This document shows, piece by piece, positions 36,567 to 38,349 of a DNA stretch of 64,000 nucleotides. Where the stretch lies: positions 124,001 to 188,000 of the forward strand of contig NZ_FOPY01000003.1 of NCBI RefSeq assembly GCF_900113605.1, read 5' to 3'. Each line of letters starts with the position of its first letter. Position 1 is the stretch's first letter. The translations under genes and the position numbers were made by a program. The notes below the pieces were generated by a model. It was not told where the DNA came from, searched no databases, and saw only the letters and a program-made list of their open reading frames with translations. Source of the DNA: Modicisalibacter xianhensis. Its GTDB lineage: Bacteria > Pseudomonadota > Gammaproteobacteria > Pseudomonadales > Halomonadaceae.

Positions 36567-36601
36567 CTGACGGGCCGGGCCTGCAGGGGCCGGCCCGTCA
36601 G
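36567..36601. terminator. Long hairpin between the hemerythrin-like gene and umuC
   Basis: Perfect 12-base arms CTGACGGGCCGG (36567-36578) and CCGGCCCGTCAG (36590-36601), 11-base loop. The right arm includes the umuC stop codon. No U-tract follows on either strand, but its place between convergent genes suggests a shared transcript end. Confidence 0.5.
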
Positions 36602-37857
36602 GTCGATACCTGCGGCAGTTCATCCCACCGGGTCGTGTAACATGGCGAGCGATACCGGCTGTTCATCGGCCATGTGGCGTTGTCGTAGCGCAATCCCAGT
36701 GTGAGTGAATCGCGGCCATACCGCTGTCTGATGGCATCCCAGGCAAGCATCAGCGCTTCCTGTCGGGCGGGCTCGTGCCCCTCGAACAGCGAGGCCTGGC
36801 TGCCATGGCGCGGGGACAGGTCGGCCAGCATGACTCCCAGCTTCTGATAGGCGATACCGGGACGCCACAGGTCCGCCAGGAGTCGTTGGGCATGGTGGTT
36901 GAGCCGCAAGGTGTCGGCACTGGGGAAGGGCAGCATCGTCCACAGGGAGTGCGATTGTTGCGGGCCAGTGTGATGAGGGTTGGTTCGCAGGAATACCCCG
37001 ATGGCACTGGCCAGCATATCGTCACGACGCAGCTTTTCCCCGGCACGCTGGCAGTGGTGGCGTAGTGCGTCGCTCAGTTGTTGGCGATCGTTGATCAGCC
37101 GGCCGAACGAACGTGAACAGAGAATGCTGCGCCGTGGCGTAGCCAATTCGTGGGCTTCCAGGCAGGGTGTGCCGCGCAGTTCGCGAGCCGTGCGGGCCAC
37201 TACCACGCTGAAGCGCATGCGCAGTAGGGCTTCAGGCGTTTCGCGAAGCGCGGCGGCGTTGTCGATCCCCAGGCTGGCCAGTTTCAGGGCGAGACGACTA
37301 CCGATGCCCCACACAGCCTTGAGCGGGAGTTGGTGCAGATACCGGCTGAGTTCGGGCGCCTGCGCATCCGGCCACAGGCAGAACTGGGAATGGCCTGGCA
37401 TGCCCTTGGCGCGGCGATTGGCCAGTTTGGCCAGGGTACGTGTCGGGGCGATACCCAAAGAGACGGGCAGGCCAACCTCGCGCTCCACCGCTTGAACGAG
37501 ACTGCGTCCCAGAACGTCAAGGTCGCCGCCGATACCCCGCAGGTCAAGAAAGCACTCATCGATGGAATAAGGCTCGAGAGCAGGCACGCGTGCTGCCAGG
37601 ACCTGTTGAACACGGCTGGAAAGGTCGCCGTAGAGGGCGTAGTTCGAGGATCTGAGCACGATTCTGCGCCGTTGTCCTGACGGTATCTGGTGCACTGGCA
37701 TACCCATGGTGATACCCAGCGCCTTGAGTTCCTCGGAGCGTGCAATGACACAGCCATCGTTGTTCGACAATACGCCGACCGGCACGCCCTCCAGGCCAGG
37801 TTCGAACAGACGTTCACAACTGACGAAGAAATTGTTGCAGTCGATCAGCGCGTACAT
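36598..37857 (-). CDS. umuC: Y-family DNA polymerase V subunit UmuC
   Basis: A 419-residue translesion polymerase. The catalytic acidic residues are present: Asp6 in M-Y-A-L-I-D-C-N-N-F-F and Asp100-Glu101 in Y-S-I-D-E-C-F. The Y-family palm, fingers (R-S-E-E-L-K-A-L-G-I) and C-terminal domain follow, with R-S-F-G-R typical of UmuC. ATG 37857 lies eight bases after the umuD stop, so the two are co-translated. Transcription is expected from the LexA-boxed umuD promoter. The protein appears intact, in contrast to its partner UmuD. Confidence 0.94.
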   Translation of the reverse strand: MYALIDCNNFFVSCERLFEPGLEGVPVGVLSNNDGCVIARSEELKALGITMGMPVHQIPSGQRRRIVLRSSNYALYGDLSSRVQQVLAARVPALEPYSIDECFLDLRGIGGDLDVLGRSLVQAVEREVGLPVSLGIAPTRTLAKLANRRAKGMPGHSQFCLWPDAQAPELSRYLHQLPLKAVWGIGSRLALKLASLGIDNAAALRETPEALLRMRFSVVVARTARELRGTPCLEAHELATPRRSILCSRSFGRLINDRQQLSDALRHHCQRAGEKLRRDDMLASAIGVFLRTNPHHTGPQQSHSLWTMLPFPSADTLRLNHHAQRLLADLWRPGIAYQKLGVMLADLSPRHGSQASLFEGHEPARQEALMLAWDAIRQRYGRDSLTLGLRYDNATWPMNSRYRSPCYTTRWDELPQVST

Positions 37858-37865
37858 GGCAGCAC

Positions 37866-38300
37866 TCAACGGCGAAAGGCATGAATGACATGACAGACCG
37901 GGCCCCAGATGCGGTGATCGTGCTCGCCGTCCAGGGGAACCCGGGCCAGGCGGCTGTCTTCGCCCTGAAGCCAGAAGCGACCGGCATGGCTATCCAGGCG
38001 CTGCAGGCTCAGGCTGCCGTCGATGGTGGCTACGACCCAGTCGCCGGCCCGGGGGGATAGTGCCCGGTCGATGATCAACAGGTCCTTGTCATGGAAGCCG
38101 GCCTGGACCAGGCCATGCCCACTGACACGCATGAAGAAGGTCGAGGCGGGGTGGGGCACCAGGTAGCGATCGAGATCCAGAGGGAATTCACGATAATCGT
38201 CGGCGGGGGATGGAAAGCCACTCGCTCCGCGTAGCTCGGGACTGGGAGCCAGAAGTGAGGTGCTTCTGGGGGATGCGTAAGCGAAGCGGCTGACGTTCAT
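37866..38300 (-). CDS. umuD: UmuD-like subunit lacking the catalytic Ser-Lys dyad
   Basis: A 144-residue LexA/UmuD-family protein. It aligns without gaps to E. coli UmuD (from memory) with an offset of three: S27-G28-F-P-S-P-A-D-D-Y at the cleavage site, H-P-A-S-T-F-F-M-R-V-S-G, then H-D-K-D-L-L-I-I-D. At the position of catalytic Ser60 it has Gly63 (S-G-H-G-L instead of S-G-D-S-M), and at Lys97 it has Gln100 (S-L-Q-R-L). Self-cleavage to UmuD' should therefore be impossible. AAGGAGGCATACCC precedes the ATG. The frame is open and the fold motifs are conserved, so this does not look like a random pseudogene. Confidence 0.9.
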   Translation of the reverse strand: MNVSRFAYASPRSTSLLAPSPELRGASGFPSPADDYREFPLDLDRYLVPHPASTFFMRVSGHGLVQAGFHDKDLLIIDRALSPRAGDWVVATIDGSLSLQRLDSHAGRFWLQGEDSRLARVPLDGEHDHRIWGPVCHVIHAFRR

Positions 38301-38329
38301 GGGTATGCCTCCTTGGGTAATGGTATGGA

Positions 38330-38349
38330 TACTGTAAAAATAACCAGTA
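38330..38349 (-). promoter_or_regulatory. LexA (SOS) box upstream of umuDC
   Basis: TACTGTAAAAATAACCAGTA closely matches the gammaproteobacterial LexA palindrome (consensus CTGT-N8-ACAG; here CTGT-N8-CCAG). It lies 30 bases before the umuD ATG, and so predicts DNA-damage induction of the operon. Confidence 0.85.

Follow-up and report, generated by a model that had tools for sequence, protein, structure and literature searches.

The window's umuDC operon

The window, a 64,000-nucleotide stretch of the Modicisalibacter xianhensis genome (contig NZ_FOPY01000003.1), carries on its minus strand a umuDC operon whose UmuD lacks the catalytic Ser-Lys dyad. Inspection of the DNA reveals a LexA (SOS) box, TACTGGTTATTTTTACAGTA, at 38330..38349 and a Shine-Dalgarno sequence, AAGGAGG, at 38308..38314, with the ATG of a 144-residue umuD-like gene (37866..38300) 7 bases further on at 38300; these and all features below lie on the minus strand. 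The following gene, umuC (36598..37857), was identified by translation and profile matching, encodes 419 residues and starts (37857) 8 bases past the umuD stop. An earlier note on this DNA had described a good LexA box, an ideal ribosome-binding site and tight coupling, and all three can be read in the sequence.

Translation, profile searches and alignment assign the 144-residue protein to the UmuD family, consistent with its place beside umuC under a LexA box. Its score against NF007621 (UmuD), 111.4 bits, is barely above the cut-off of 110, and that against PF00717 is 57.3 bits for a cut-off of 23.3. The HMMER alignment with the solved E. coli UmuD (8gmt) and UmuD′ (1umu) is gap-free across both dyad positions. 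It places Gly63 (codon GGC, 38112..38114) at the Ser60 nucleophile and Gln100 (codon CAG, 38001..38003) at position 97, the site of the Lys97 base, which is Lys in 1umu and Ala in 8gmt itself. The DNA reading and the alignment therefore agree on the two substitutions claimed in the earlier note, and the Ser60-Lys97 dyad is absent.

The N-terminal leader (residues 1-27, 38220..38300) lies ahead of the former cleavage site, contains no Pro-Leu-Phe motif and ends in R-G-A-S. It is followed by GFPSPAD (residues 28-34, 38199..38219), the arm segment that would remain on UmuD′ after cleavage, and a Ser-Gly bond is still present at the former cut site. An internal start that would yield UmuD′ directly was rejected, as no in-frame ATG, GTG or TTG occurs at the former cut site of the gene. 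An AlphaFold model of the protein had a mean predicted local distance difference test (pLDDT) value of 77.6, with 63 of 144 residues at 90 or above and low values in the leader. The best Protein Data Bank match of this model in Foldseek was UmuD′ itself (1ay9; probability 1.00, template modelling score 0.83 by target length), and the UmuD′ fold is thus retained in the predicted structure.

The partner polymerase appears catalytically complete. The UmuC encoded in the window retains Asp6, Asp100 and Glu101, in agreement with the intact active site claimed in the earlier note, together with a clamp-type motif, QASLF, and a match to DUF4113 at the C terminus; its score against NF002955 was 347.8 bits, under the cut-off of 431. 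The steric gate residue was Phe11 in this UmuC and in 7 of 26 members of the clade described below, and Tyr in 57 of 57 UmuCs with intact partners (L138 and L185 being left out of the UmuC residue comparison).

A conserved Halomonadaceae clade

A search of 275 genomes of the family revealed the dyad-lacking type of UmuD in at least 26 genomes of six genera, forming one clade; 26 is a minimum, the lower-scoring matches having been read in part. Among the matches listed, the type was found in 7 of 14 genomes of the window's own genus (g1), 2 of 2 of g2, 10 of 10 of g5, 4 of 5 of g7, 2 of 2 of g12 and one of g21, and its named carriers include Modicisalibacter ilicicola, Halomonas salipaludis and three Chromohalobacter species. 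NF007621 scores fell below the cut-off in 12 of the 26 UmuDs (102.7-109.7 bits). Lys97 was missing from every member, being replaced by Leu (10), Gln (7), Arg (5) or Tyr (4), and position 60 was found to drift (Asp 10, Thr 6, Ala 5, Gly 2, Ser 2, His 1). The Gly/Gln pair singled out in the earlier note is thus not fixed within the clade, and what its members share is the loss of Lys97. Asp6, Asp100, Glu101, Gln354 and Leu357 were all present in the UmuCs of the 26 members, so that dyad loss goes together with a catalytically intact polymerase, a co-occurrence that the earlier note had proposed to count.

The nearest relative (G150) is 81% identical to the UmuD of the window and likewise has Gly/Gln. 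Because the same loss recurs in a clade of 26 genomes, a sequencing error at codons 63 and 100 is excluded. An alternative dyad was also ruled out: the sole Lys of the protein past the former scissile Gly occurs in one relative only (L012), and 20 of the 26 members contain no Lys whatever after the former cut site. Neither objection anticipated in the earlier note, an error or an alternative dyad, therefore held.

A LexA box of the form TACTG-N10-CAG was present upstream of the operon in all 26 members. The ratio of nonsynonymous to synonymous substitution rates (dN/dS) in the UmuD core was 0.04-0.38 across 37 of 74 within-genus pairs, indicative of purifying selection, although the values are rough in the more distant pairs, where synonymous differences are high, and 8 of the 45 g5 pairs are shown. 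In many g1 pairs the leader varied several times as much as the core; the start codons of the clade were inferred, those of L012, L023 and L025 probably being placed too far upstream. Judged by its sequence, the window gene is neither an error nor a decaying copy, belonging to a conserved clade that has kept its LexA box and whose UmuD core is under purifying selection.

The 26 UmuCs were monophyletic in a tree of 95 UmuCs (support 100/100), with a long stem branch of 1.01. The operon also occupies a shared chromosomal slot. In the window the neighbouring genes were identified as LolA, RarA, hemerythrin-like, LysR, MurI and TrmA, and at least one of these flanking genes (MurI, LysR or TrmA on one side, the hemerythrin-like gene on the other) was present in 25 of 25 short loci, with RarA following the operon in 6 of 7 longer loci. 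LysR was not found beside the operon in L013/L041, L014-L017/L042 and L018, nor were hemerythrin and RarA in L027/L045. The slot was without a umuD or umuC match in 7 of 7 same-genus genomes lacking the operon. A mobile origin was rejected, given the slot common to the clade and the tblastn matches to plasmids (among those listed) and phages, all of which were below 60% identity.

In 12 of the 26 genomes the searches found neither a second UmuD nor a second UmuC (G147, G001, G002, G132, G133, G006, G007, G008 and G012-G015), of which G007 is a single-contig genome and most are drafts.

Features of self-cleavage in two lineages

A set of 121 loci from the family, a sample and not the whole of its UmuDs, was reduced to 90 distinct UmuD rows, comprising 63 with Ser60 and Lys97, the 26 of the clade and one (L038) with Ala60 and Lys97. 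The 63 intact rows used in the counts of Lys, P3 and the fixed-place arm motif consist of 62 from the family and L128 of the wider order, L195 having no readable site. The order control comprised 60 loci hand-picked at an E value of 1e-20 or better, and so is no random sample; one (L265) was unreadable, and Ser60 and Lys97 were both kept in 59 of the 59 readable UmuDs. A set from other groups comprised 65 loci of L047-L120 (that is, without L049, L050, L051, L068, L090, L103, L106, L107 and L113). It includes two UmuDs, L060 and L120, in which Cys60 accompanies a retained Lys97. A further locus, L090, has Ala60 with Arg97, and no umuC was found nearby.

The arm motif was scored at a fixed place, as a Pro and a following hydrophobic residue, the Pro lying nine residues ahead of the scissile Gly. 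Of the intact relatives 56 of 63 had it, as had 55 of 59 UmuDs of the order and 56 of 65 of the other groups; it was present in none of the 26 clade members, even when a shift of one residue was allowed. Two regular expressions were also counted: the first matched 44 of 63 intact rows and 1 of 27 non-intact ones, and a looser one 58 of 63 intact and 2 of 26 clade rows. A large hydrophobic residue at P3 was likewise common in intact relatives (50/63), the order (54/59) and other groups (62/65) and absent from the clade (0/26), so that the UmuD of the window has no self-cleavage site with docking residues. By contrast with these losses, GFPSPAD was invariant in all 26 members. Arg at P4, four residues before the old site, was also present throughout the clade; the comparison sets had it less often (21/63 intact relatives, 20/59 UmuDs of the order and 15/65 from other groups). 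Excerpts of PMC5342242 report that the T14A L17A F18A (3A) change in E. coli UmuD frees the arm from the globular domain; the arm motif scored here is the counterpart of the stretch altered in that mutant.

A second lineage with comparable losses was found in a Cyanobacteriota/Melainabacteria-group order. L106, from a metagenome-assembled genome (Cyanobacteria bacterium SZAS LIN-3), has Gly60 and Arg97 and adjoins a umuC with a SIDE motif. Matches were obtained in 22 of 53 genomes of this order, giving 23 UmuD loci, 17 with Arg97 and 6 with Lys97; the query was itself of the Arg97 type, so that 17 of 23 is not a frequency. None of the 17 Arg97 loci had the arm motif at its place or a hydrophobic P3, and both were retained in 4 of 4 loci with Ser60, Lys97 and a leader (L222 being left out of both counts and L218 out of that for P3). 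Arg at P4 occurred in 14 of the 17. In nine of the 17, a Met that lies nine or ten residues ahead of the old site could serve as the start. In L202 an in-frame Pro-Met-Phe lies upstream of the likely start, and in L221 a Pro-Leu lies two residues off, neither being at the fixed place. The arm motif was also lost from L218, which has Ala60 and Lys97. L222 (G674) keeps Ser and Lys, but its sole nearby Met stands directly before AFPSP, and its product may be of UmuD′ length at birth.

In a quick UmuC tree of 49 rows, the 16 UmuDs of the second lineage with a full-length UmuC (L203, with its UmuC cut short, being left out) fell apart from the Halomonadaceae clade. Counting both groups, the tree requires three changes, all forced by branches with a Shimodaira-Hasegawa approximate likelihood-ratio test (SH-aLRT) value of at least 95; the tree was made without bootstrap.

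As read from the sequences, then, the dyad, the arm-docking motif and the hydrophobic P3 have been lost in the UmuD of the window, the arm, the UmuC, the LexA box and, in the model, the fold have been retained, and selection on the UmuD core is purifying. The earlier note had deduced the loss of self-cleavage from the dyad; that the docking motif and P3 are gone together with it strengthens the prediction.

A probable UmuD′-like subunit and its alternatives

Since the features for docking and cutting the arm are lost jointly and the arm itself is kept, a UmuD′ made directly by translation is the most economical reading. We consider it probable that the UmuD of the window is a pseudo-protease that serves as a UmuD′-like subunit of DNA polymerase V (pol V) and needs no cleavage. 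Upon SOS induction through LexA it would be made together with its own UmuC and would fold like UmuD′, its N-terminal arm being neither docked on its own globular domain nor cut. The uncut, conserved GFPSPADDY arm would then be free from the start for UmuC binding, pol V would be active with no cleavage in the cell, and the polymerase of this operon would be gated by transcription (plus RecA transfer) and not by RecA-triggered cleavage of UmuD. A structural model described in excerpts of PMC12926913, as distinct from a solved complex, places the N-terminal arm of one UmuD′ inside the cleft of UmuC, the tip of the arm lying close to the active site.

Several observations weigh against this reading. 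All 26 clade members carry R-[GS]-A-S directly ahead of the old cut site, a motif for which an idle leader would have no need; moreover, a leader of 12 to ~27 residues has been retained and not trimmed away, and its variability in the g5 (Chromohalobacter-like) pairs barely exceeds that of the core. Ser60 is still present in the two clade members noted above, though without Lys97. In the second lineage the chemical loss is less clear, as Ser60 is kept in 9 of the 17 Arg97 loci and lost in 8, and on sequence alone Arg may serve as the base where Ser60 and Arg97 occur together. Structure models were uninformative as a test of arm docking, because both for the window protein and for an intact UmuD they gave the arms low confidence. 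In E. coli, the S60A change in UmuD strongly lowers UV mutagenesis (excerpts of PMC3901139 and PMC5342242), and UmuD 18 supports low mutagenesis only (PMC5342242, in part). A UmuD′-like role alone does not explain the invariance of R-[GS]-A-S; the motif may belong to the arm that binds UmuC, or it may have become a cleavage site for another protease.

The latter possibility, in which another protease trims the arm at R-[GS]-A-S/G, be it a housekeeping or SOS protease or a LexA or LexA-like S24 protein acting in trans, is unlikely, even though much of the leader ahead of the invariant motif varies and the P4 Arg recurs in the second lineage. LexA was found in all 26 clade genomes, and all but G152 (25 of 26) also had a match to a further LexA-like S24 protein. 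However, the hydrophobic P3 is lost, and so is the arm motif through which the substrate docks in the known self-cleavage reaction, and none of the identified neighbours is a known protease. Of 61 family genomes sampled, 54 gave a match to the LexA-like protein without a helix-turn-helix (HTH), four of these matches being partial and weak (Ser/Lys and the missing HTH were read in the window's own genome only); the protein is thus unlinked to the clade and was ruled out as a dedicated trans-protease. Cleavage in trans within mixed dimers, with an intact paralogue of UmuD as the protease, is very improbable. It has a precedent in E. coli UmuD S60A, which is cut in trans in heterodimers (excerpts of PMC5342242), and the genome of the window encodes two UmuDs that retain Ser and Lys. 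Against it, 12 of the 26 genomes, the single-contig G007 among them, had no other UmuD that was found, the P3 and arm motif of the substrate are lost, and the two paralogues of the window UmuD are just 34% and 39% identical to it.

A permanent full-length UmuD that acts as a checkpoint factor, inhibitor or timer and keeps UmuC (or DinB) off would accord with E. coli, where uncleaved UmuD restrains mutagenesis and joins a checkpoint (PMC3901139, in part). We regard this role as improbable, as the protein has lost the arm motif that full-length UmuD carries, the 3A change in E. coli weakens binding of the alpha C terminus to the level seen with UmuD′ (excerpts of PMC5342242), and a pure inhibitor is hard to square with 12 genomes in which this was the sole umuDC found and in which the catalytic residues of UmuC are complete. 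A decaying or non-functional gene is highly implausible: the operon can be absent from its slot, and the stem branch on the UmuC tree is long, but across 26 genomes the reading frames stay open, the LexA box and the UmuC catalytic residues are kept and dN/dS is low. Of the three outcomes raised in the earlier note, a pol V working with uncleaved UmuD accordingly fits best, and the inhibitor or timer is disfavoured by the lost arm motif and the catalytically complete UmuC.

The fold, operon and regulation of this UmuD are already known, and the predicted natural loss of self-cleavage appears to be the new part. No description of a natural UmuD without the dyad was found in searches of open-licence papers; subscription literature lay mostly outside the search, which is thus no proof of absence. 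UmuD cleavage is described as a safety catch that delays the mutagenic pol V until damage persists. The pattern of loss suggests that some bacteria run a mutation-prone polymerase without this usual catch, and a conserved UmuD that lacks it, belonging in some genomes to the sole pol V found, provides natural material for asking whether cleavage serves activity or timing only. More tentatively, a cleavage-free pol V may represent a second natural design of the SOS mutasome, in which self-cleavage would have been dismantled at least twice, with joint loss of Lys, arm motif and P3, retention of the UmuC-binding arm and mostly a P4 Arg, and in which the uncut arm, together with this Arg, may extend into the UmuC cleft and tune the polymerase. 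If true, the features gone jointly in two unrelated lineages would be those that serve self-cleavage alone, and the arm thought to touch UmuC stays.

Among known systems, HumD of phage P1 is a UmuD′-length protein made without cleavage. The UmuD of the window scored 65.6 against its profile (NF051876), below the cut-off of 120; in HumD the UmuD′ state would stem from a short gene, and in the UmuD of the window from loss of the dyad. SipA of Streptococcus pyogenes is a natural pseudo-enzyme without its dyad. This signal peptidase homologue (4n31) belongs to the same superfamily and was a weak Foldseek match (E 5e-3), but by the title of 4n31 it is a pilus polymerisation factor, unlike the UmuD of the window. 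E. coli UmuD/UmuD′ (S24 family, pol V) shares the fold (1ay9), the GFPSPA arm, the UmuC operon partner and LexA control; unlike it, the window protein lacks the Ser-Lys dyad, the Pro-Leu-Phe motif and the hydrophobic P3, and self-cleavage by the known chemistry is predicted to be impossible. E. coli UmuD-3A and UmuD 18 are non-cleavable, have free or weakly docked arms and are called UmuD′-like in excerpts of PMC5342242. Both are engineered, however, and UmuD 18 is of low activity, whereas the state seen here is natural and conserved and includes dyad loss besides. YqjX/YolD, a proposed UmuD analogue of Gram-positive Y-family polymerases, is a small partner with an N-terminal arm modelled in the polymerase cleft, and a cleavage step is unmentioned in the descriptions consulted (parts of PMC6511836 and PMC12926913); it is a separate protein family, whereas the window protein is a true UmuD homologue.

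The source genome of the window (4.36 Mb in 45 contigs) contains three umuDC operons in all and a LexA with DinB adjoining. The search for a second, intact umuD proposed in the earlier note was thus successful, as the other two operons encode the UmuDs with Ser and Lys (L004 and L003). Both are odd, one having extra residues before the Ser loop (VVDDGDSM) and the other GFPIHA in place of GFPSPA. A decayed umuDC remnant (L006, G000:C21:1823-5158) has stops in umuD and its umuC in fragments only. The LexA-like S24 protein of this genome (L002, G000:C37:121924-122394) has Ser/Lys and a VTAG site, with no HTH in the 157 residues read. In L004 (G000:C30:1829-5155), at ~2060-2411 on the plus strand, lies a gene for a solo UmuD′-like protein of 117 residues without Ser or Lys at the dyad, which matches NF007621 weakly (E 1.1e-5). 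The solo gene is divergent from the umuDC operon with the intact UmuD and is directly followed by one that was judged SRAP-like by eye from MCGRFALY.
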